Assembly: GCF_000296695.1 (NCBI RefSeq)
Contig: NZ_BAFK01000008.1
Location: 1 to 64,000, forward strand
DNA length: 64,000 bases
Origin: Rheinheimera nanhaiensis E407-8
GTDB taxonomy: Bacteria; Pseudomonadota; Gammaproteobacteria; Enterobacterales; Alteromonadaceae
Reading direction: 5' to 3'
A model generated the notes under the pieces. That model was not told the origin of the DNA and ran no database searches. It was given only the letters and a program-made list of their open reading frames with translations. How positions within the stretch are numbered: position 1 is the first letter of the stretch; every line of letters begins with the position of its first letter. The translations under genes and the position numbers were made by a program. Shown here in pieces: positions 3,112-60,913 of the stretch.

Positions 3112-3816
3112 TCAGCGCTGTGGCGGGCCATAAATTTGTTCGGCCGGGTTAAATAAAATCCAGCTGGTCAAAATATATTTGTCATTCGATACCGGAATGC
3201 AGCCACGGTGGGTGTGGGTAAAGTAGGCCGGCGCTATCACCATGCGGCCGGTTTTTGGCTGAATGCTTTTGTTCTGGTAATAAAACTCTGTCTGGCCGCC
3301 TTCTGCCACATCATTTAAATAGAACATAAACAGCAGCGCCCGGTGCAGCGGTTCAGTGCTGCCTTGCTGCGGGTACACTTCACTGTGCCAGTAACCATAG
3401 TTGCCCACCCCGGCCTGATATTTTTGCGCCTGAATATTGCCCAGCCGAAACAGCACCCGCATAAAATCCAGCGTTTTGGGCTGGCCGAGCTCGGCAAAAT
3501 TATCATGGGTAATGGCAACCGGTTTGCCGGTATCAGGGTGCGCTATGGTTAAGCCGACCGGGCCTATCAAGGCGAAATGGTACTTTTTAAAGTATTCGCA
3601 GGCGTAGTGGGTGGTGGCCTGCCAGATCACTTTTAGCAGTTCCTGATACTCGGCATGCTGATACAGGTAAAGGTCGGTACTGACTTTTTTGCTGGGGTCG
3701 ACTCCACCACCGGTGCGACCCGGCGCTTTGTGCGGGCTTTGTTCAAACACGTTAATCAGCTGTTGGCAAAATTGTTCGCTTAACGCATTATCGTACACTT
3801 CAATAAAATCAGTCAT
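3112..3816 (-). CDS. 2-oxoglutarate/Fe(II)-dependent oxygenase (P4Hc-like)
   Basis: A 234-residue cytoplasmic protein with the double-stranded beta-helix signature of 2OG-Fe(II) oxygenases. A probable metal-binding pair H144 and E146 lies in 'YWHSEVYP' (HxE, a tolerated variant of HxD). The distal His is in 'YFTHTHRG' (H201 or H203). 'GGQTEF' fits the strand leading into the second half of the fold. Family members hydroxylate proteins or small molecules; the substrate here is unknown. It is divergent from the thioesterase gene with only 11 bp between start codons, so the two promoters must lie inside each other's coding sequence or be shared. It ends at a shared bidirectional terminator. Confidence 0.72.
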   Translation of the reverse strand: MTDFIEVYDNALSEQFCQQLINVFEQSPHKAPGRTGGGVDPSKKVSTDLYLYQHAEYQELLKVIWQATTHYACEYFKKYHFALIGPVGLTIAHPDTGKPVAITHDNFAELGQPKTLDFMRVLFRLGNIQAQKYQAGVGNYGYWHSEVYPQQGSTEPLHRALLFMFYLNDVAEGGQTEFYYQNKSIQPKTGRMVIAPAYFTHTHRGCIPVSNDKYILTSWILFNPAEQIYGPPQR

Positions 3817-3827
3817 CGGGATCCCTT

Positions 3828-4223
3828 ATGTGGCAAAAAATTATTACTCCGCGTTTCTCTGACACGGATGCGCTGGGGCATATCAACAATACGGTGTTTG
3901 CCGTCTGGTTTGAAGGCGCCAGACGTGATGTTTTCAAAATTTTTACACCAGAGCTTAATTTACAACAGTGGCCGTTAATTGTCGCCAGCGTAAAACTGGA
4001 TTATCACGCCCAAACCCATTTTCATGCCGATGTTGAGCTGCGCACCTACATCAGCCGTATTGGCAACAGCTCGTTTGATGTCTATCAGGAAGCCTGGCAA
4101 AACGGCGTAAAAACCGTGTCGGGTACCGCCGTGCTGGTGCAATTTGATTACGCCAGCAATAAAGCCGTTGCCCTGAGCAGTGCGCAACAGCAGCAGCTAA
4201 GTGCACATGCCTGCCGGGCATAA
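3828..4223 (+). CDS. Acyl-CoA thioesterase, 4HBT/YbgC type
   Basis: A 131-residue hotdog-fold protein. The N-terminal 'FSDTDALGHINN' is the hallmark of the 4-hydroxybenzoyl-CoA thioesterase/YbgC family, in which the Asp of DTDALGH acts on the thioester; 'FEGARRDVF' follows on the long central helix. The length matches single-domain YbgC-type enzymes. The physiological acyl-CoA is not predictable. It lies alone between the divergent oxygenase and the gamma-glutamyltransferase, with about 95 bp to the latter. No tol-pal genes are nearby, so it is probably not the tol-linked ybgC itself. Confidence 0.82.
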   Translation: MWQKIITPRFSDTDALGHINNTVFAVWFEGARRDVFKIFTPELNLQQWPLIVASVKLDYHAQTHFHADVELRTYISRIGNSSFDVYQEAWQNGVKTVSGTAVLVQFDYASNKAVALSSAQQQQLSAHACRA

Positions 4224-4317
4224 ACGTCGCATGCTGCCTTGGTCTGGTCGTAAACTGCTGGTATGGTAAGGCGCAGCTGGTTAAGGTTTAGCCACAACAA
4301 AAAATAGAGAGTCTGTT

Positions 4318-6042
4318 ATGAAACGTCTGTTACTTGGCTTAGGGGTAGGGTTTTCACTGGCGCTGAGCAGTGGTGCGCACAGTTATGATCGTATTACCGG
4401 CGAGCGCTTTGCCAGCCGCTCAGAGGTGATAGCGCAGCAGGCGATGGCCGCCACCAGCCAGCCGCTGGCGACCCAGATTGCGCTGCAAATTATGCAGCAA
4501 GGCGGTAACGCGATAGATGCAGCTATTGCCGCTAACGCAGCGTTGGGCCTGATGGAGCCCACTGGTAATGGTATTGGTGGCGACTTGTATGCCATCGTCT
4601 GGGATGCAAAGTCGCAAAAGCTGCACGGGCTAAATGCGTCTGGCCGCTCACCGCTAAGCTTAAGTTATGACATGCTGGCACACGAGTTACAAAAGCTGGG
4701 CCGCACCGATTTGCCGCCACATGGCATGTTGCCAATCAGCGTGCCCGGCGCGGTGGATGGCTGGTTTGAACTGCATAAAAAGTTTGGCCGCCTGCCAATG
4801 GCCGATATTCTTCAGCCCGCTATCAGCTACGCCGACAACGGTTTCCCGGTCAGTGAGTTAATTGCCTATTACTGGGATCGCAGTGTACCAGTACTCAGCC
4901 CGCAGCCGGGCGACTTTGTCGGCACTTTTACCCTCAACGGCAAGGCACCGGCCAAAGGCCAGCTATTTAAAAACCCGGCACTGGCTAATACCTACAAAGC
5001 GCTGGCAAAAGGTGGCCGCGATGCGTTTTACAAAGGAGAGATAGCCGTAGCGATAGACCGTTTTATGCGCGCCAATGGCGGCTATTTGCGCTTTGCTGAC
5101 TTTGCTAACCACCGCTCAGATTGGGTAGAGCCATTGGGTGTCGATTACAAAGGCTATACGCTGTGGGAACTGCCACCCAATGGTCAGGGCATAGCGGCGC
5201 TACAAATGCTGCAAATTCTGAAAAACTTTGATTTAAAAGCCGCCGGCTTTAACAGCGCAGAAAGCCTGCACCTGATGGTAGAAGCGAAAAAACTGGCGTT
5301 TGAAGATCGGGCGAAGTTTTATGCCGACAGTGACTTTGCCAAGCAGCCAATTGCGGGTTTAATCTCCGAAGCCTATGGCCGCGAGCGTGCCAAACTGATC
5401 GGTGATAAAGCCGCCAAACGGGTTGATGCCGGTAACCCGCACCTGTACGAGGGTGATACTATCTATATGACCACCGCCGATAAAGACGGCAACATGGTCT
5501 CCCTTATTCAAAGTAACTACCGCGGCATGGGCTCCGGCGTCGTGGTGCCGGGGCTGGGTTTTGTGTTTCAGGACCGTGGCCAGCTGTTCTCAATGGATAA
5601 AAAACACGCCAATGTCTACGCGCCCGGCAAGCGGCCCTTTAATACCATTATCCCGGCCTTTATTACCAAAGATGGCAAGCCGCTAATCAGCTACGGCGTA
5701 ATGGGTGGCGCTATGCAGCCGCAAGGCCATGTGCAGGTGCTGGTGAATATGGTCGACTACGGCATGAACCTGCAGGAAGCCGGTGACGCGGCGCGCTGGC
5801 AGCATTTAGGCAGCACAGAGCCGACCGATGGCAGCGACATGTATCTGCAAAACGGCGGTTATATTGAAGTTGAGCGCGGTGTGCCTTATGACACCGTGCG
5901 CGAGCTGATGAAAAAAGGCCATGACGTGCGCTACGGTTTAGGCGGCTATGGCGGTTATCAGGCCATTATGCGCGACCATGCCAACGGCGTTTGGGTTGGC
6001 GCATCTGAGTCGCGTAAAGACGGCCAGGCGGCGGGCTATTAA
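4318..6042 (+). CDS. Gamma-glutamyltransferase family protein
   Basis: A 574-residue exported Ntn-hydrolase with a signal peptide ending near 'SSGAHS'. The large-subunit motif 'GGNAIDAAIAANAALGL' and 'GNGIGGDLYAI' are characteristic of GGT. The expected self-cleavage site and nucleophile is Thr381 in 'GDTIYMTTADKDGN', giving a small subunit of about 194 residues. The family cleaves or transfers gamma-glutamyl groups (glutathione and relatives) in the periplasm. The usual small-subunit 'PGGS' region instead reads 'GVMGGAMQPQGH', as in the subgroup that includes YwrD-like and cephalosporin-acylase-like members, so classical glutathione hydrolysis should not be assumed. Its last 4 bp overlap the convergent thioesterase gene. 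Confidence 0.88.
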   Translation: MKRLLLGLGVGFSLALSSGAHSYDRITGERFASRSEVIAQQAMAATSQPLATQIALQIMQQGGNAIDAAIAANAALGLMEPTGNGIGGDLYAIVWDAKSQKLHGLNASGRSPLSLSYDMLAHELQKLGRTDLPPHGMLPISVPGAVDGWFELHKKFGRLPMADILQPAISYADNGFPVSELIAYYWDRSVPVLSPQPGDFVGTFTLNGKAPAKGQLFKNPALANTYKALAKGGRDAFYKGEIAVAIDRFMRANGGYLRFADFANHRSDWVEPLGVDYKGYTLWELPPNGQGIAALQMLQILKNFDLKAAGFNSAESLHLMVEAKKLAFEDRAKFYADSDFAKQPIAGLISEAYGRERAKLIGDKAAKRVDAGNPHLYEGDTIYMTTADKDGNMVSLIQSNYRGMGSGVVVPGLGFVFQDRGQLFSMDKKHANVYAPGKRPFNTIIPAFITKDGKPLISYGVMGGAMQPQGHVQVLVNMVDYGMNLQEAGDAARWQHLGSTEPTDGSDMYLQNGGYIEVERGVPYDTVRELMKKGHDVRYGLGGYGGYQAIMRDHANGVWVGASESRKDGQAAGY

Positions 6043-53180: not shown

Positions 53181-53448
53181 GATGAAGTCCTTGTTGTATT
53201 TGAGTTAAACGCTATCGGTCAACTATCAGCAAGCTGCTTGCCAATTTTATCATGCTGATAAATAACGTTATTTTTATTCTGGCGTTGCTTGGCATGTGCG
53301 ATTTTCACGAAAAGGTGGCGAAAACCGCTAACGTTGGTGGGAATGCATTGCATTAGCAAAGGGTAATTTGCCGCAAAAGTGTGCATTAGGTGTACGTATC
53401 CGGTATCTTGGGCTAAAAATAATAAAAGCCTTTAAGGTACCTGTGGTT

Positions 53449-55509
53449 ATGCGTTTTTGGTTATCCCTGTGTTGTCAGCTGTACCTCACCCTGTTGTTGC
53501 TACCGGCCTTGCCAGTGTTGGCAGCATTACCGGTTGACGCCCAGCTGGAGCAAGCACTGGATAAGTATATTCTGCTGTCGATAGACGATGTTGCCGCTGC
53601 CGAGCAGCAATTGCTTGAGCTGGAGCAGCAACATGCGCATAACCCCGCTATTGCCAGCCGGGTGCGGCTGCTCAGTTATCTGGTTAACTACCAGTTTTAC
53701 CAACAGGATCCCGAGCGGCTGGAGCAGCGCCTTAGCCAGTTACTGGCCCAGGCCGAGCTGACAGAAGATGCCGATACGCTGGCAGAAATCTACGCCACTG
53801 AGCTGGAGATCCGGCTGTATCAGACTAAGTTAAATGAGGCTTTTCTTAATATTGACCGGGCGACCCAAGCCGTTAGCCGCGCGCTGACACCACGGGTACG
53901 TTACTACGCCAATAACGTCCTGGGCCGGTTGTATAAAGCCGATCAGCAATTTGAAAAAGCGCTGCAACATTTTATCGACGCGCTGGATGCGGTAAGCGAA
54001 ACCGATGATGCTTTCACATTGCGCCGGCGGGCCTTTTTAAACTACAACATAGCCCATGTGCACACTGAGCTGAGAAACTGGACACAGGCCCGCACTCTGA
54101 CCGAGCAAAATATCGCCGAGGCGAAAAAGTATGGCCATGATGGCTTTTTACCGGAGCTGTATTTGCTGCTGGGCTATATCGTCGGCTCAGAAAAAGATTA
54201 TCCGCGTGCGGTGCAAATTAATCAGCAAGGCCTGGCAGCGGCAAATGCGGTGGGGCATGACAGCACTGCACTTATTTTCGAGAATAACCTCGGTGCCACC
54301 TATATCCAGATGGCGCAGTATGCTGAGGCCAAAACCATCTTACAGCAGGCACTTAAGCGGGCAGAGCAGCTACAAGACGAGCACAGCAAGCAGTTAATCT
54401 TGCAAAATCTGGGCTTTATCCGTGTGATGCAAGGTGAGCATGACGAGGGCATAGCGCAGATGGAAAGCACTATGCGCTATTTAAGCCAGCATTCTGCCAA
54501 AACGGAATATGAACCCTATTATGAATGGCTGGCCAAGGCGTATGCTGCAGCCGGACGTTATAAAGAGCAAGCCGACACCTTGTTGGAGCAAATGGCCTTG
54601 CAGGAGGATATCCGCAAAGCCGACAGCGAAAGCCGGCTGGCCGCACTGCACGACAGGTATGACTCTAAAGCCAAAGCGCAGCAGATCACTATACTGGAGC
54701 AGGAAAACGCGCTGCATGCCCAGTTGCTGGAAAACCAGCGGTTGCATCAACAACTCGTTTGGTTAGTTGCCATTATTGTTGCCTTTGCCGCTGTTATGGT
54801 ATTCCAGCTATACCGTAAGGTGCGCCGCTCTAATAAAAAGCTTCACGAAACCAATAAGCTGCTGGCGTATCAGTCACAACGCGATGTACTCACCGGGCTG
54901 TATAACCGCCGTGCACTGCAGGAGTATTTACAAAAGCGGGCGTTAAAGCGGCGCGATGGCGATATTGTCAGCAGTAGCATTACCGGCTTTTTATTGCTGG
55001 ATATCGACTTCTTTAAAAAGGTAAACGACAGCTATGGCCATGCTGCCGGCGATGCTGTGCTACAAAGTGTGGCGCAGCGGCTGCAAGATAGCTGTCGCGA
55101 CAAAGATATGGTGGTGCGTTGGGGCGGTGAAGAAATGTTGCTGGTATTGGATAATATCGACCCGGCCCATGTTGGCAGCTTTGTACAACGGGTGTTAAAT
55201 ATTATTGGTGAACAGCCGGTGACCTTTGACAACCAACAGATCGCAGTAACAGTTAGTGGTGGTTTTATTCACTTGCCGTTTGCCGGTATCAGCGAGGCTG
55301 AGCTGGACTGGGAAAAGGTACTGCAAATTGCCGATATGGCGCTGTATTTAAGTAAAACTAACGGCCGCAACCAGGTGTGTATGCTCGAGGGGCTAAATGC
55401 CCGCTTTAGCGAGGTAGAGTCGCAGCTTTACAGCGATCTGGCCGGCGCTATCCGTGCTGGACAGGTGCAGGTGGCAACGATAAATGGGCCGGGTGGTAAT
55501 GTTAGCTAA
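53449..55509 (+). CDS. Exported TPR - diguanylate cyclase (GGDEF) protein
   Basis: 686 residues from ATG 53449 (AAGG upstream), which gives a signal peptide ending 'PVLAALP'. The frame is open further upstream without support. TPR-like helices fill about 30-400 (for example 'NNLGATYIQMAQYAEAKTIL'), then a coiled coil, one membrane helix ('LVWLVAIIVAFAAVMVFQLY', about 445-465) and a cytoplasmic GGDEF domain ('RDVLTGLYNRRAL', 'LLDIDFFKKVNDSYGHAAGD'). The active-site loop reads RWGGEEM, with Met where Phe is usual; GGEE itself is intact, so cyclase activity is likely. Confidence 0.85.
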   Translation: MRFWLSLCCQLYLTLLLLPALPVLAALPVDAQLEQALDKYILLSIDDVAAAEQQLLELEQQHAHNPAIASRVRLLSYLVNYQFYQQDPERLEQRLSQLLAQAELTEDADTLAEIYATELEIRLYQTKLNEAFLNIDRATQAVSRALTPRVRYYANNVLGRLYKADQQFEKALQHFIDALDAVSETDDAFTLRRRAFLNYNIAHVHTELRNWTQARTLTEQNIAEAKKYGHDGFLPELYLLLGYIVGSEKDYPRAVQINQQGLAAANAVGHDSTALIFENNLGATYIQMAQYAEAKTILQQALKRAEQLQDEHSKQLILQNLGFIRVMQGEHDEGIAQMESTMRYLSQHSAKTEYEPYYEWLAKAYAAAGRYKEQADTLLEQMALQEDIRKADSESRLAALHDRYDSKAKAQQITILEQENALHAQLLENQRLHQQLVWLVAIIVAFAAVMVFQLYRKVRRSNKKLHETNKLLAYQSQRDVLTGLYNRRALQEYLQKRALKRRDGDIVSSSITGFLLLDIDFFKKVNDSYGHAAGDAVLQSVAQRLQDSCRDKDMVVRWGGEEMLLVLDNIDPAHVGSFVQRVLNIIGEQPVTFDNQQIAVTVSGGFIHLPFAGISEAELDWEKVLQIADMALYLSKTNGRNQVCMLEGLNARFSEVESQLYSDLAGAIRAGQVQVATINGPGGNVS

Positions 55510-55512
55510 CCG

Positions 55513-55684
55513 TTTTACTGACTAACCACCAACCCATACCCGGTTGGCTTATAGCCCAAACTCCACTCGCGCTTGCCGCTGACAAAAGGATTATCGTGGC
55601 CCATATGCTGGCTTATGCGCTGGTCAAGCTCGAGCTCTAGCGATGTCTCCGGGTCTTGCTTATGTCAGGCAATAAACAACTTTT
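55513..55684 (-). pseudogene. Endonuclease I 3'-end remnant 1
   Basis: About 170 bp matching the 3' end of the intact endonuclease I gene at 57924 onward, in the same orientation, with no insertions or deletions and about 19 differences by hand count. The frame is kept to the same stop codon (55515-55517), ending '...GYGLVVSQ', but one Trp codon is TGA (complement of 55665-55667). Similarity begins exactly at the stop codon and ends near 55684. There is no 5' part, so it cannot be a functional gene. Confidence 0.9.
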
Positions 55685-55726
55685 GACCACGATATTTAGC
55701 TAATTGCAAACATCTTATCAGACTTG

Positions 55727-56506
55727 TTAGCCATTTTTATTCAATGGTGATGGCGGTGGTGGTGGTGGCAATATATGTTGATGACTCGTAAAATGTACTT
55801 CTTTTAAGTGCCGGCATAAGCCGTCGAAGTCAGGAAATAAGGTCATATCATTGATTCCCATAGAATTTAGCTCTCGCATTACAACATTTCGGTTAATAGC
55901 TGACATATCATAACGCCACAAAAATGTACGATTTCTCTCAGTACCTTTCTGCATAATAAAGTTTTCAATATCAACCACATTAGTCGAAGTTGTTACCCCC
56001 ATTTGCCTTGCCATTCTTTGGTTCCCTGTCGCATATGGAACAAAGTTACTGACAAACTGTTCAACTCCAAGAAAGTTCGTTTCAGAGCCGAAAGCTTCGT
56101 TCCAACCCTCAATATCGAAAATATACACTGTAACTTTATCTGTCACATTGGGACTTAACGGCGCGTTTTTAAAAGCAAAATATGCAGCTATATAGCCAGA
56201 TAGAGTCCAATCAAGTAAAGGTGTAGGAAAGCCATGATGTTGCAGTTTCCCCAAGAATGCACCATATTCAGCGTTATTTTGAAAATTGATTGGAGCCTCA
56301 AAGGCAGCAACTTGATAATTTACGTCATTTATGATGGTGCTAAAGTAAGTTTCGAGAGATATGCCTTTGAGCTTGGCGCTGCGCTGAAAAGTGGTTTCTA
56401 GCTTCCACCTGCTATCGCTCTGACCTCGAAAATAGTACTTTTTGTTGTTTCGTGTTGCGTCTGCGACCCAACTTTTATAGGTATCCCAGCTTTGTTCCAT
56501 TCTCAT
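55727..56506 (-). CDS. FRG domain protein
   Basis: 259 residues. The FRG domain (named for its Phe/Tyr-Arg-Gly motif) is shown by 'YYFRGQSDSRWKLETTFQR' near the N-terminus and 'TPLLDWTLSGYIAAYFAFK' in the middle. FRG proteins are of unknown activity and recur in variable genomic islands, some with defence genes. The C-terminus is a His/Pro run ('HQHILPPPPPPSP') encoded by a short GGT-like repeat. AT-rich codon use differs from the flanking chromosome. It is the only gene between remnants 1 and 2 and reads toward remnant 1. Confidence 0.82.
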   Translation of the reverse strand: MRMEQSWDTYKSWVADATRNNKKYYFRGQSDSRWKLETTFQRSAKLKGISLETYFSTIINDVNYQVAAFEAPINFQNNAEYGAFLGKLQHHGFPTPLLDWTLSGYIAAYFAFKNAPLSPNVTDKVTVYIFDIEGWNEAFGSETNFLGVEQFVSNFVPYATGNQRMARQMGVTTSTNVVDIENFIMQKGTERNRTFLWRYDMSAINRNVVMRELNSMGINDMTLFPDFDGLCRHLKEVHFTSHQHILPPPPPPSPLNKNG

Positions 56507-56669
56507 TCCCTAACCGTCAAGTTGAACATGCTAACCGAACATTCCGAATGATCATAAATCGGAAGTGTCGCATAAACGATTTTGCAAGTTCCAGAATTGC
56601 TCTTAGTCTAGGCGGTTAGTTGTTTGTAAATCAAGCGGCCTAATTATTAGGCAAACTGTGGCTTGTGTT

Positions 56670-56765
56670 TTATTGGCTTAGTGTTAATCCATACCCGGTT
56701 TTCTTATACCCCAAATTTCTCTCGCGCGTGCCGCTGACAAATGGATTATCGTGGCCCATATGCTT
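56670..56765 (-). pseudogene. Endonuclease I 3'-end remnant 2
   Basis: About 96 bp again matching the last codons of endonuclease I, same orientation, more diverged than remnant 1. Read on the minus strand it stays in frame from 'MGHDNPFVSG' through 'NLGYKKTGYGL' to a stop codon at 56670-56672. So it derives from a related but different endonuclease gene. Apart from this remnant, the 400-bp gap 56507-56908 is AT-rich and holds no gene; TACAAT at 56871-56876 could be a -10 for the next gene. Confidence 0.85.
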
Positions 56766-56908
56766 AACAAATGGATTTACCGCGAGCATTGGTATTTAAC
56801 GCTGGAAGTCTTTTTCTCGACAATGAATCATAAAATTAAACTTATTACTTTCAAATATTATCAATTAATTTACAATGCTCTCTCTTCTAGCTTTATCGGA
56901 CTTTTAAA

Positions 56909-57421
56909 ATGGATTTGATTAAGGAATGTGGTGTACTTTGCGATGACCCGGCATTTATCTCTTTACTCAACAGGGCTAGAGGCCAAGTAGGCAGTGAAGT
57001 TCGTGCTGCTAATAACCGTGGTGCAAACAATAAACCAGCAGTAGGACATGATGCTATCAGGGCTAATGCACCTCTTGGGTTGGTGATTAGAAAAGATAAA
57101 GATCTGAGTTACAAATACAGTCGCGTTGGTACTAATGCAACTGCCGGGCGGGAATGTAATGGTACTAATGGGTTGGTATGTAATTTTGTTAATATCAGTG
57201 AGGATAATACTGCTGTCGCGGTATTAGTTGGAGTCCCTCCCCGAGTCAGGCTTGAGAGTTTTAGCTCAGAACATTTTCGGGCAGTTTATAAGAAACTGGC
57301 TCGTGAAACTGAACGGCCTGTGTTTGTGATGGGCACTGGCACGAATGCCATCGGCATTATTTATGTGACTGATGGCAATACTTTTACACGTGTCGATATG
57401 ACTCTTAAAGCTAAGAGGTAG
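56909..57421 (+). CDS. Hypothetical protein in endonuclease-bounded module B
   Basis: 170 residues, not recognised. It looks soluble, with no signal peptide. An Asn/Ala-rich segment near 30-45 ('RAANNRGANNKPAVG') is followed by 'IRANAPLGLVIRKDKD' and a more regular alpha/beta C-terminal half ('AVAVLVGVPPRV', 'FVMGTGTNAIGIIYV'). No clear ribosome site precedes ATG 56909. It is followed after 2 bp by a lipoprotein gene, so the two form a small operon. Confidence 0.6.
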   Translation: MDLIKECGVLCDDPAFISLLNRARGQVGSEVRAANNRGANNKPAVGHDAIRANAPLGLVIRKDKDLSYKYSRVGTNATAGRECNGTNGLVCNFVNISEDNTAVAVLVGVPPRVRLESFSSEHFRAVYKKLARETERPVFVMGTGTNAIGIIYVTDGNTFTRVDMTLKAKR

Positions 57422-57423
57422 TA

Positions 57424-57873
57424 ATGAAAATTCATAAGTACTCATTTGCTTTGCTGCTGTCAGCCTTCGTTTTTGGCTGCCACGCTACACCCAAAGAAGC
57501 GTACACCTACGATGCGGTAACTACAGTGGTTAATCTTATCGCTACACCTGAGCGCTACTTCAATAAGAAGATTGAAGTAGACGGAGTGTTTATTGGTTTT
57601 CACCAGGACCGGCTGTATTTAAGTTCTGAGCATGCTGAAAATATGATTTCATTGTTATCAATCAGTGTGTTGGATGATACGGAAACCGAAGAGGGCAGTT
57701 TGACTATGTCACCTTGTAGCGGTGAATGGGTAAAGTTGTGGGCTACCTTTATTCCGGCACAGCAGCCTGGTATCAGCACAGAGCAAGGCCGCTTAGTAGT
57801 TGACAGGGCGATGCTGCATAAAGACGGTAAAACTTGCTGGAAGAGAACGGAAAAGTCTCGTTTTGTAAATTAA
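57424..57873 (+). CDS. Hypothetical lipoprotein in module B
   Basis: 149 residues. The signal peptide ends in a lipobox-like 'AFVFGCHA' (Cys19). The mature part has an OB-like strand pattern ('KKIEVDGVFIGFHQDRLYLS', 'GEWVKLWATFIP', 'GRLVVDRAML'). No family recognised. It overlaps nothing and starts 2 bp after the preceding stop. It is convergent with the intact endonuclease gene (50 bp). Confidence 0.65.
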   Translation: MKIHKYSFALLLSAFVFGCHATPKEAYTYDAVTTVVNLIATPERYFNKKIEVDGVFIGFHQDRLYLSSEHAENMISLLSISVLDDTETEEGSLTMSPCSGEWVKLWATFIPAQQPGISTEQGRLVVDRAMLHKDGKTCWKRTEKSRFVN

Positions 57874-57923
57874 CCAACCCCATTTTTAGCGCCGGCGGTC
57901 AGCAGTAGCTTCCGCCAGGTAAT

Positions 57924-58664
57924 TTACTGACTTACCACCAACCCATACCCGGTTGGTTTATAGCCCAAATTCCACTCGCGCTTGCCGCTAACAAAAGGGT
58001 TGTCGTGGCCCATATGTTGGTTAATGCGCTGGTTTAACTCGCGCTCTTGCGGTGTTGCCGGGTCTTGCTTATGCCAGGCGATAAACAACTGCTGCTGGGC
58101 GCGCGACAGGTTAAGGTTGTACTTGTCGGCCATATAAAAGTAAATGCGCGCGATATCACCGCGCACATTGGGCGCGGGTTCGAACACCTTTTGCTTAAAA
58201 TCGACTTTCACCGGGCAGGCACCGTGTTTGGCTTCGGTAGCCGGTAATACACCAAACCGGAAGTTGCTGCGATCGCCATTTACCTCGCCAATAGCGGGAA
58301 CCAGGTTGTATAAATCGGCTTCCATCAGGCGGAACACCTCGTCGGTTTTCACGCAGTTTTTGCGCCCGCCTTGTTGCCAGCACTGGCGCTGATGGCCAAA
58401 GTGATGCGCTGGCATCACATGCTCCCATTCGATACGGCTGGCGCGCGGGCCGTTTTTACGTACCTGATAGCCACAGCCGGCTAAATCCGGTATGCCCTTA
58501 CTGCCTTGCCAGCGAATATCGCAGTCGCAATAAAAGCTTTTCGCTTCAGGGGCGTGAATACGCTGCGCCAGCTTTTTTGCCTGGTCAAAATTGGTCGGCG
58601 CCGCCTGGCTGGCACTGGATAACAGCAGCAATAAGCTGCTAACAACAATAAAAAAATACTGCAT
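57924..58664 (-). CDS. endA: Endonuclease I family nuclease
   Basis: 246 residues with a signal peptide ending 'SSASQAA'. This is a periplasmic/secreted DNase of the EndA/Vvn type: beta-beta-alpha metal nuclease motif 'RIEWEHVMPAHHFG' (E81, H82, with H87/H88), 'DLYNLVPAIGEVNGDRSNF' with the metal Asn, and several Cys for disulfides ('YCDCDI', 'GCGYQV'). It is the only complete copy; two truncated copies of its 3' end lie downstream of its stop (55513-55684 and 56670-56765). Confidence 0.92.
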   Translation of the reverse strand: MQYFFIVVSSLLLLLSSASQAAPTNFDQAKKLAQRIHAPEAKSFYCDCDIRWQGSKGIPDLAGCGYQVRKNGPRASRIEWEHVMPAHHFGHQRQCWQQGGRKNCVKTDEVFRLMEADLYNLVPAIGEVNGDRSNFRFGVLPATEAKHGACPVKVDFKQKVFEPAPNVRGDIARIYFYMADKYNLNLSRAQQQLFIAWHKQDPATPQERELNQRINQHMGHDNPFVSGKREWNLGYKPTGYGLVVSQ

Positions 58665-58731
58665 TCACTACCACTTACTTCAGTGACTTATTCCGGCTTA
58701 GCTTATTGTATTTGGCTTAACGACAGCTGAT

Positions 58732-59232
58732 TTAATGCGTTTTACCGGCAATGTGCTCAATATCTTGCTGCAGCTGTTTACGCAGGCCAAGTTTAAAGCC
58801 CAGCTCGGCGATAATAAACAGTGGCCCGACAAAAAGACCAATCAGATCATCAACAAAGGCGGGCTTTTTACCCTCGTAGTAATGGCCGATAAACTGTAGC
58901 ACCCAACCTACAACAAACAGGGCTACGCCGCTGCCCAGCCAGACGGCGGTTGGCTGCGTCGCCAGATAGCCGGCGATAGCAAAGCAGCTGCCGCTAAACA
59001 GCAGCATTATCAGGCCAAAGCGTACGTCGAGCCGAAAATAAAACAGCGCAGAGGCAACAAACAATATCAGCGCCGGGGTAATGGCTACGCCACCAAGAGT
59101 GAACAGCGGCCACCACAACAAGCCAAAGAGGGCAATGACAATCAGTGGAATGCCGGCATAGTGGGTGAGGATATTGCGCTCATCACGATGGTACTTGGCA
59201 TATTGGCTTAGGTGTTCGGTCAGGTTTTTCAT
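58732..59232 (-). CDS. DUF962/Mpo1-like membrane protein
   Basis: 166 residues from ATG 59232 (GGAG 8 nt upstream), beginning 'MKNLTEHLSQYAKYHRDERN'. The 'YHRDxRN..THYAGIPLI' segment and a later 'FIGHYYEGKKPAF' are the hallmark of the Mpo1-like/DUF962 family, Fe-dependent dioxygenases in yeast that shorten 2-hydroxy fatty acids. His in both motifs are the presumed metal ligands. Four membrane helices. The bacterial role is unproven. Confidence 0.85.
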   Translation of the reverse strand: MKNLTEHLSQYAKYHRDERNILTHYAGIPLIVIALFGLLWWPLFTLGGVAITPALILFVASALFYFRLDVRFGLIMLLFSGSCFAIAGYLATQPTAVWLGSGVALFVVGWVLQFIGHYYEGKKPAFVDDLIGLFVGPLFIIAELGFKLGLRKQLQQDIEHIAGKTH

Positions 59233-59488
59233 CGCTTCGTCTCCGGCAAAAACCACAGTAGGCTTAGCCTAAAGCCGCTGTCTGGCGTGGTCAATGAGAC
59301 ACTTTGTTCCTGTTGTAGCAAAACTGTAAAGTTGGCGTATATGAGCAATAAATATACAACGCCAAGGCGTAGGGTAAAGGGGTGTTAACGGAGCTTGATG
59401 TCACTAACACTTAGTGGTGCCGGCATGGCCGCACCGCTGCCCGCTCACGGATGACTTGCATAAACCAAACACAATAAAGGATAGACCA

Positions 59489-60913
59489 ATGCAAGTAATC
59501 AGTACCGTAATCAGGCGTCAGCTGCTTAAGCTGATGCTGGTGTTAACCCCGGCAGTGCTTAGCAGTACCGCCAGTGCCGATGCCATTTTACATGCCTTTG
59601 ACTGGCACTATGACGAAGTGGCGGCCAAGGCCAGTGAGATTAAAAACCTTGGTTATAAAGCTGTGCTGGTGGCGCCACCGCTAAAATCAAACGCCGGTAA
59701 CTGCGCCTGGTGGCAGCGTTACCAGCCGCAGGATATTCGTGTTATCGACCACTGTAAAGGCAACAAGCAGTCTTTTGTGAATATGATCAATGCGTTAAAT
59801 GACGCCAACCCGGCACGTAAGGTAGACGTTTACGCCGATATCGTGCTGAACCATATGGCGAACGAGCGAAGTGGCGCCACCGACTTTCCCGGCCAGGCGG
59901 CGCTTAACAGCTATGGCAGTAACAGCAGCTACTGGAACAACCAGCGCTTGTTTGGCAATTTAACCCAGGGCCTCTTCAGCCCGTGGGACTTTAACCCGGC
60001 CAACTGTATCAGCAATTACAACGATGTATGGCAGGTACAAAATTACCGGCTGTGCGGCGGTAGCGGTGACACCGGTTTGCCTGATTTAAACCCCAACAGT
60101 TGGGTGGTACAGCAACAGCGTGCCTATTTAAGCGCGTTAAAAGCACTGGGGGTTAAAGGCTTTCGGGTAGATGCCGCCAAACATATGACCATCTGGCATA
60201 TCAATGAAATCTTCACCAGCAGCATTAAAGACGGCATGTACGTGTTTGGTGAAATTATTACCAGCGGCGGTGCCGGTAATAACGAATACGACAGCTTTTT
60301 AGCGCCCTATTTAAGCTACACCGATCATAAAGCCTATGATTTTCCGCTGTTTAGCAGTATCCGTTCAGCCTTTGGCTTTGGCGGCAGTTTAAGCCAGCTG
60401 GTTAACCCGGCCTCTTATGGCCAGGCGCTGCAAAACAGCCGGGCGGTCACCTTTACCGTCACCCACGATATTCCGACCAATGATGGCTTTCGTTACCTGA
60501 TCATGGATCCGACCGACGAATACCTGGCCTATGCCTATGTGATGGGGCGTGATGGTGGTAAGCCGCTGATTTTCAGCGACAGCACCGGCACCGACAATGG
60601 CCGCTGGGTGAACGCCTACAAAGCCAGCCACATCAGTAAAATGCTGAACTTCCATAACCGCATGCAGGGCCAGGGCATGGAAATGCTGGCCTGGAATGAC
60701 TGCGCTATCTTGTTCCGCCGCGGTCAGGAAGGTGTAGTAGGCATTAACAAATGTGGCAGCACCCAAAGCTTTAATGTTAATACCAACGGCCGTTTCTACT
60801 GGTACCGCAATTACCGCGATGTATTAAGCGGTGGCAATCTGGTGTATATCAGTGGCAGCAGCTACAACTTCAGCCTGCCGGCACGGCAGGCCAGAATGTG
60901 GTATGCCGACTAA
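59489..60913 (+). CDS. Secreted alpha-amylase (GH13)
   Basis: 474 residues from ATG 59489 (AAAGGA upstream), giving signal peptide '...SSTASA' before mature 'DAILHAFDWHYDEV'. GH13 motifs: 'DIVLNHMANE' (region I), nucleophile D228 in 'GFRVDAAKHM', acid/base E255 in 'YVFGEIITSG', and D327 in 'FTVTHDIPTND'. There is a C-terminal beta-domain but no obvious starch-binding module. The enzyme would cut internal alpha-1,4 bonds of starch or glycogen outside the cell. It is convergent with the helicase gene, 9 bp apart. The roughly 250-bp upstream gap shows no clear regulator site. Confidence 0.9.
   Translation: MQVISTVIRRQLLKLMLVLTPAVLSSTASADAILHAFDWHYDEVAAKASEIKNLGYKAVLVAPPLKSNAGNCAWWQRYQPQDIRVIDHCKGNKQSFVNMINALNDANPARKVDVYADIVLNHMANERSGATDFPGQAALNSYGSNSSYWNNQRLFGNLTQGLFSPWDFNPANCISNYNDVWQVQNYRLCGGSGDTGLPDLNPNSWVVQQQRAYLSALKALGVKGFRVDAAKHMTIWHINEIFTSSIKDGMYVFGEIITSGGAGNNEYDSFLAPYLSYTDHKAYDFPLFSSIRSAFGFGGSLSQLVNPASYGQALQNSRAVTFTVTHDIPTNDGFRYLIMDPTDEYLAYAYVMGRDGGKPLIFSDSTGTDNGRWVNAYKASHISKMLNFHNRMQGQGMEMLAWNDCAILFRRGQEGVVGINKCGSTQSFNVNTNGRFYWYRNYRDVLSGGNLVYISGSSYNFSLPARQARMWYAD

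Follow-up and report, generated by a model that had tools for sequence, protein, structure and literature searches.

Integrating elements of the e14/icd type replace the 3′ end of their target gene, with an integrase and a fixed crossover point. The locus described here is the endonuclease I gene (endA) of Rheinheimera nanhaiensis E407-8, which has two small gene modules behind its 3′ end, each bounded on the outside by an extra copy of that end. It lies in a 64,000-nucleotide stretch (contig NZ_BAFK01000008.1, positions 1 to 64,000), the whole of which is called the window below. For the type VI secretion system (T6SS) effector-immunity modules of Vibrio cholerae, Kirchberger et al. (2017, PMC5361080) describe sequential displacement, in which new arrivals push older material outward, the 3′ end of an earlier effector gene among it, and they propose homology-facilitated illegitimate recombination (HFIR). 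Their text also mentions rhs loci with rows of orphaned 3′ regions and cites displacement of rhs C-termini. In an Escherichia coli conjugation experiment, the PCR product that marks a partial duplication came from 56 of 60 clones; 14 were sequenced, and their duplications measured 109–950 bp, which is explained there by a single crossover of molecules that had been shortened and had probably re-circularised (PMC3240628).

The endA locus is probably the product of homology-anchored, additive insertion of DNA from relatives, with at least two insertions behind endA, beside an orphan integron dock. It shares with e14/icd the arrival of a divergent replacement 3′ end and the old end left as a remnant, while the integrase and the fixed crossover point belong to the e14/icd case. 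As described for the Vibrio modules (PMC5361080), a module would enter at the homologous side, the old 3′ end would be pushed outward, and arrays would grow stepwise. The displaced gene in Vibrio is the cargo's own effector, whereas endA and the other genes treated below are ordinary host-gene anchors that stay intact, with cargo that varies by relative. The original prediction did not recognise the pattern as that of a described system; the outward-displacement geometry has this published parallel. The partial duplications of PMC3240628 are by analogy a close fit, with foreign DNA between copies of a partially duplicated homologous segment, but they come from a laboratory plasmid system, and the Rheinheimera copies are natural, mostly divergent and about 40–256 bp long. 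Finally, the integron attI platform and its delta-attI-type cassettes (PMC12901181) are matched by a leader related to the attI of the genus; unlike that platform, the locus has no adjoining integrase gene (intI) and no intact attC behind its FRG-domain gene, and the leader has dispersed copies away from the integron.

The order at the locus is endA, B2 and B1 (module B), R2, the attI-like leader, the FRG gene (module A) and R1, followed by a GGDEF-domain gene, where R1 and R2 are the extra copies of the endA 3′ end (Table 1). A repeat search gives three in-register copies at 55514–55681 (the reference), 57923–58090 (89%) and 56669–56836 (63% over the whole length, with the true match at about 56670–56764). 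Searched with the endA DNA, the own genome has three matching places only, namely endA itself, R1 (55514–55681, 89%, E 7.6e-57) and R2 (56686–56762, 84%, E 4.1e-17; about 80–84% overall). The two modules with their outer boundary copies, as first proposed, are confirmed. Both R1 and R2 extend to the endA stop codon, as was also proposed. Similarity in relatives continues past the stop for about 12 bp at locus L039 and for 64 bp in a copy of a PepSY gene at L147. The starts of the copies differ, lying at about −168 in R1, about −95 in R2, about −221 in the remnants of L037, L039 and L040, and about −202 in that of L041. Among the 55 genes of the window, endA alone has such a 3′-end copy.

Mismatches between R1 and endA number 3, 5 and 11 at codon positions 1, 2 and 3, and those between R2 and endA number 4, 3 and 12; the remnants of four relatives have the same third-position excess (4, 5 and 17 in L040, for example). 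Because the mismatches fall mainly at third positions, R1 and R2 appear to be homologues from other lineages; the best explanation of the copies is that they diverged there while still part of functional genes, and not that they decayed locally. This excess and the identity of 80–89% uphold the claim that the copies differ like homologues of different strains, and on the codon-position counts the endA remnants were rejected as decayed tandem duplicates. Local partial tandem duplication of the endA 3′ end together with cargo, with later decay, would suit the direct orientation and adjacency of the copies; it is distinctly unlikely in view of the third-position excess and the 80–89% identity, the different cargo in each interval and the existence of colinear, unoccupied relatives. 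The similarity of the window endA switches along the gene between L034 and other species, a mosaic look that suggests recombination inside the gene. A mosaic endA and divergent homologous remnants fit a crossover in homology on the anchored side, which they suggest.

A match to endA is present in all 31 genomes of the genus, and the nearest named relative of the window gene is that of R. pleomorphica (94% protein identity). Remnants were probed at 23 endA loci of Rheinheimera and Arsukibacterium (the window and 22 related loci) with 30-mers from the last 240 nt of the endA of each locus, allowing up to 6 mismatches, on both strands and over 6 kb downstream. Five of the 23 loci have remnants: the window, L037, L039, L040 and L041, with one remnant in each of the four relatives. 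The probe has no match at the other 18, of which L047 has only 160 bp downstream, so 17 are testable. All four relatives have a 177-aa gene together with the remnant, in DNA that is colinear between them at about 90% over 1.2 kb, and their insertions are therefore probably one shared event. The cargo behind endA or a remnant comprises B2B1, FRG, the 177-aa gene, the HEPN genes AbiU2 (L040) and LA2681 (L043), and genes without a family. The cargo of the window differs from that of the four remnant-bearing relatives. The comparison of cargo across relatives that the original prediction called for thus gives variation, flanked by endA 3′ ends in 5 of the 23 loci.

Several relatives resemble the state before insertion. 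At L043 (R. lutimaris), which has no insertion, the endA 3′ end and what follows it, a downstream stretch with an attI-like leader, align colinearly with the remnant and leader of L040 (75% over 441 bp); relative to L043, the 177-aa gene and a new endA 3′ end are interposed in L040. At L044 (R. maricola), the endA 3′ end and attI are colinear with R2 and the leader of the window (67% over 198 bp). Behind the remnant, L037 and L041 continue with sequence that in L036 and L035 stands upstream of the next conserved gene. Given the colinear pre-insertion relatives L043 and L044, the outer copy is, on these alignments, the old end that was displaced, both in the case of R2 and in that of the relatives' remnants. 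R1 may be an old end as well.

The footprint is not specific to endA, since it stands in the same form behind PepSY and HAD-hydrolase genes and seven further genes. Relatives of B1-B2 lie convergent to a PepSY_TM gene (L147) and to a HAD-hydrolase gene (L195). At L147 (genome G024), B1-B2 is bounded by a 256-bp, 93% copy of the PepSY_TM gene 3′ end with its terminator, and L151 (G014) has the same structure with most of the gene gone. At L195 (G012) the boundary is a 107-bp, 97% copy of the 3′ part of the HAD-hydrolase gene, of which the last 45 bp or so differ strongly. An unselected scan of contig 1 of G024 (1.2 Mb, 967 genes) for truncated 3′-end copies downstream gives a chemotaxis receptor gene (91 bp), a DUF1993 gene (39 bp only), gcvP (69 bp), a GH115 gene (52 bp), a CreA gene with two successive copies and a TonB receptor gene with a copy at 72%, with 0.9–3.9 kb between gene and copy. 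Contig 1 of G027 adds a 97-bp copy of an iron alcohol dehydrogenase gene, which makes seven further genes (six in G024 and one in G027). Third-position excess recurs in the copies of the chemotaxis receptor gene (1, 1 and 6) and gcvP (0, 1 and 7), also in the DUF1993 copy, and more weakly in the TonB copy (19, 13 and 32); the PepSY row is out of frame and is left out of this comparison. The earlier view of endA as a capture hotspot thus stands as regards cargo that varies between relatives, and falls as regards endA in particular. That interpretation is partly supported, being right in outline and too narrow in scope.

The scan was also run with an automatic criterion (a copy had to measure 35 bp or more, lie no farther than 20 nt from the gene end and be outside any other open reading frame (ORF) of the same strand) on 1883 Rheinheimera genes (967 + 312 + 291 + 258 + 55) and 888 genes of other gammaproteobacteria. 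Downstream 3′ copies occur for 8 of the 1883 and 0 of the 888 genes (Fisher p 0.06), upstream 5′ copies for 2 in each sample. Copies on the wrong side number 0 in Rheinheimera and 1 in the others for 3′ ends, and 1 and 0 for 5′ ends. The eight 3′ cases include the window endA and, among six G024 genes, a weak 66.7% match at 1131456, while the TonB case (C5) owes its inclusion to a longer alignment and not to the automatic criterion. Neither G021:C1 (312 genes) nor G000:C55 (258 genes) contributes a 3′ case. The bias towards 3′ rather than 5′ ends is suggestive only.

Cis-mobilisable elements (CIMEs) are an example of elements mobilised in trans. A tyrosine recombinase could insert small elements, or trans-mobilised ones of this kind, in the 3′ end of endA, each bringing a replacement for that end, in which case the remnants would be long attR sites. 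Such site-specific integration agrees with the position at the gene 3′ end, the intact gene, the tandem accretion and the start of R1 at GTT. It is improbable all the same, because the remnants start at different points and are 80–89% identical and not identical cores, the footprint is also found at unrelated genes, and integron integrases are missing from the window and the endA loci. This last result comes from tblastn with the two integron integrases of the genome (E 1e-3), which finds no match in the window (64 kb) and none at L034–L061, the endA loci, and hence none adjoining the window leader. Pfam likewise finds no recombinase among seven ORFs at 53368–60913, hidden Markov models not having been run on every ORF of the window or the relatives. 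The earlier remark that no recombinase is present agrees with both searches.

The original prediction saw no integron-type leader in module A, and one is present before FRG. This stretch is similar to the segment that separates intI from the cassette array in the chromosomal integron of the same genome (L143, G000:C37); that integron has intI at 3733–4761, attI with its promoter at about 3740–3560, and an array with attC. Direct BLAST with the L143 attI gives a weak match in the window (53 nt, E 0.64), and the window leader is linked to true attI through other copies and a leader model. The model, sequence-only and built from twelve copies without the window, finds 56534–56644 with E 1.4e-11 (model positions 9–118 of 122). 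In the window leader GTTA follows TTGATT after 99 nt. In the genus the model has 88 matches, its training copies included, in 22 of 31 genomes, and 61 of them cover at least 100 of the 122 positions. With the L143 attI as BLAST query, ten copies end their homology at query position 226–229, the G|TTA core, among them those of L043 and L040, both endA loci; in L149 the homology extends to 240, so that ten of the eleven copies reaching that far end at the core, and the rest stop earlier. By hand comparison with integrases over the family cut-off, 3 of the 88 matches adjoin intI, and draft contig ends may hide others. A leader match lies within 2 kb downstream of endA in 6 genomes. Of 98 sampled genomes of the family 7 have a match, three of them in this genus, one a clear case elsewhere (G071) and three weak. 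FRG thus appears to sit at an orphan copy of the integron attI/promoter of the genus, which is near endA in several species.

Many attI/promoter-like copies occur per genome (G000:C37, G024, G026, G027 and others) before different genes; G024 has ten, one of them beside intI. An orthologous leader site beside the PepSY gene has a TIR gene, a Schlafen-AlbA gene or family-less genes as cargo, depending on the species. Pfam assigns a family to four of nine cargo genes tested behind leaders (TIR, Schlafen-AlbA, NucS and DUF2971). An attC-like hairpin stands directly after the first gene at L146 and L149; it is weak evidence, since the home-made attC detector, applied to 17 sites, proposes 11 candidates on the downstream side and 15 on the upstream side that serves as control, without excess over background. 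Among the endA sites this detector finds only a weak downstream hairpin at L039 (z −2.7), and at the window site, subject to the same background, it finds no attC candidate. Behind FRG there is a resemblance to the left half of attC only, with a fold z of −0.15 to −1.5 as against −2.9 to −5.5 for attC of the array. It is plausible that FRG is a once-mobile integron cassette that entered by integron recombination. In a limited search of the literature on orphan attI, titles and abstract openings describe no dispersed, integrase-less attI sites.

Further observations concern the integrons. L143 has CTGT-N8-ACAG between intI and attI (about 3776–3761, minus strand), which is taken here to be LexA-box-like; among nine integrase-less copies the motif is exact in L152 only and nearly so in L154. 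Three genomes of the genus (on G022:C21, G023:C5 and G025:C16) have an integron integrase no more than about 2.2 kb away from a weak match to endA, which stands in an open frame 556–575 aa long. In an element that is 98–99% identical in four species (L160–L163, in G014, G008, G015 and G011), intI and an endonuclease I gene, both truncated, stand head-to-head, with genes nearby that by eye resemble a two-component system; the element was rejected as part of the finding and regarded as a separate element.

That all of this DNA was moved by an integron integrase working in trans, with attI/attC and secondary sites within endA as its substrates and circles that include the endA 3′ end as the moving form, is the least probable explanation. 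In its favour, an attI leader lies beside R2 and in relatives, intI exceeds the family cut-off in 28 of 31 genomes and the R1 start AAAAG|TTG is a possible secondary core. Against it, the boundary of the remnant of the 177-aa/L037 type is by eye without GTT, FRG is without an intact attC, and several footprint genes (among them the chemotaxis receptor gene, gcvP and the GH115 gene on G024:C1) are without an adjacent attI match.

Under homology-anchored insertion, the incoming DNA would come from related bacteria and carry part of endA with cargo downstream of it. Homologous recombination inside endA would join the donor 3′ end and the cargo to the recipient gene, and the second side would close without replacing the recipient's own 3′ end, which would remain as a truncated remnant beyond the cargo. 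The likeliest vehicle may be either a fragment that closed into a circle again inside the cell and entered by single crossover, or a linear one whose second side was joined by illegitimate recombination. Repetition of the step would yield the order endA, B2B1, R2, attI, FRG, R1. The donor origin, the order of events, a RecA dependence and the closure of the second junction are presumed parts of this scheme.

Several findings weigh against this scheme. Repeated insertion with an own 3′ end and outward displacement of the old one, as originally proposed, holds for R2 and the relatives; R1 has no flank like that of L034, its nearest relative. In L034 a MAPEG gene separates endA from the orthologue of the GGDEF gene, and in L044 it adjoins the GGDEF gene; between R1 and the GGDEF gene of the window it is absent. 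L036 has B2B1 directly behind endA without a remnant, and the 3′ end of the window endA is not unusually similar to that of L036, for which reason a recent direct transfer of B2B1 from the L036 lineage was rejected. At the PepSY site of L147, the match to L149 past the repeat is 8 bp for the outer copy and 12 bp for the gene's own end, and that to L150 is 15 bp and 0, so that unoccupied relatives are split on which copy is old. Of the four B1-B2 loci at the HAD site, L195 is the only one with a copy; L194, L196 and L197 (the last in the own genome) have B1 with one, two and three B2 genes and no copy. Third-position excess is missing from the copies of the HAD-hydrolase gene (11, 5 and 11), the CreA gene (6, 7 and 9; 6, 2 and 6) and the GH115 gene (2, 1 and 2), and the bias of 3′ over 5′ ends (8 against 2 genes) has a binomial p of 0.11. 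According to PMC3240628, HFIR usually deletes recipient DNA and does not duplicate it, so linear HFIR would need a special geometry. A half-by-half identity test of circular and linear models is mixed: the 5′ half is clearly more similar in L195, C3a, C3b and C5 (3′ half of C5 50%), the order is reversed in R1 (84% against 93%) and L039, and the others are roughly even.

Table 1. Features of the endA locus and its flanks (positions in the window)
Feature	Position	Strand	Remarks
GGDEF-domain gene, outer flank	53368..55509	+	PF00990, E 7.7e-38
Remnant R1, copy of the endA 3′ end	55513..55684	-	about 168 nt; one internal stop
attC-like left half, not an intact attC	55698..55735	-	AATGGCTAACAAG; overlaps the FRG stop; resembles left ends of L143 attC
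Module A, FRG-domain gene	55727..56506	-	PF08867, E 1.8e-19
attI/Pc-like leader without integrase	56534..56644	-	promoter-like TTGATT..TAGACT; core GGTTAGC
Remnant R2, endA 3′ end	56670..56764	-	about 95 nt; frame open to the stop
Module B gene 1 (B1)	56909..57421	+	170 aa
Module B gene 2 (B2)	57424..57873	+	149 aa; convergent to endA; looks secreted/lipoprotein-like by eye
endA, intact endonuclease I gene, insertion host	57924..58664	-	PF04231, E 4e-45
Mpo1-like gene, inner flank	58732..59256	-	PF06127, E 1.4e-19; syntenic in Rheinheimera relatives

The FRG gene of module A matches the PADLOC candidate family PDC-S15 (E 3.8e-46) and is a candidate defence gene. B1 has matches in 6 of 31 genomes of the genus, none beyond the own genome among 274 genomes of the class, and none in plasmids or phages; its AlphaFold2 model is poor (pLDDT 46). 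B2 has no Pfam family, and a search of the module genes against NCBIfam likewise finds none. The AlphaFold2 model of B2 is OB-fold-like (pLDDT 74.5), and its best match in the PDB, the only one below 0.001, is aspartyl-tRNA synthetase 6od8 (E 6.5e-4); weaker structural matches include RPA and MCM10 chains. At L197:5718–7673 (G000:C28) and L196:6088–7482, B1 is followed by three and two B2 paralogues, respectively, between the HAD-hydrolase gene and uvrD. These arrays of B1 with multiple B2 genes resemble toxin/immunity arrays.

A wider proposition is that gene 3′ ends throughout the Rheinheimera genome serve as landing places, with 3′ ends preferred, where modules bring a replacement 3′ end and leave the old one behind, so that gene ends act as the mobility handle of recombinase-free cargo. 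This is doubtful at present. If the reading of homology-anchored insertion is right, displaced gene-end remnants would be a readable fossil record of the gain of small defence and accessory genes without transposases or integrases. A simple genome scan, for truncated 3′ ends outside cargo together with third-position mismatches, would read that record, and dispersed, integrase-less attI docks would be a second supply route.

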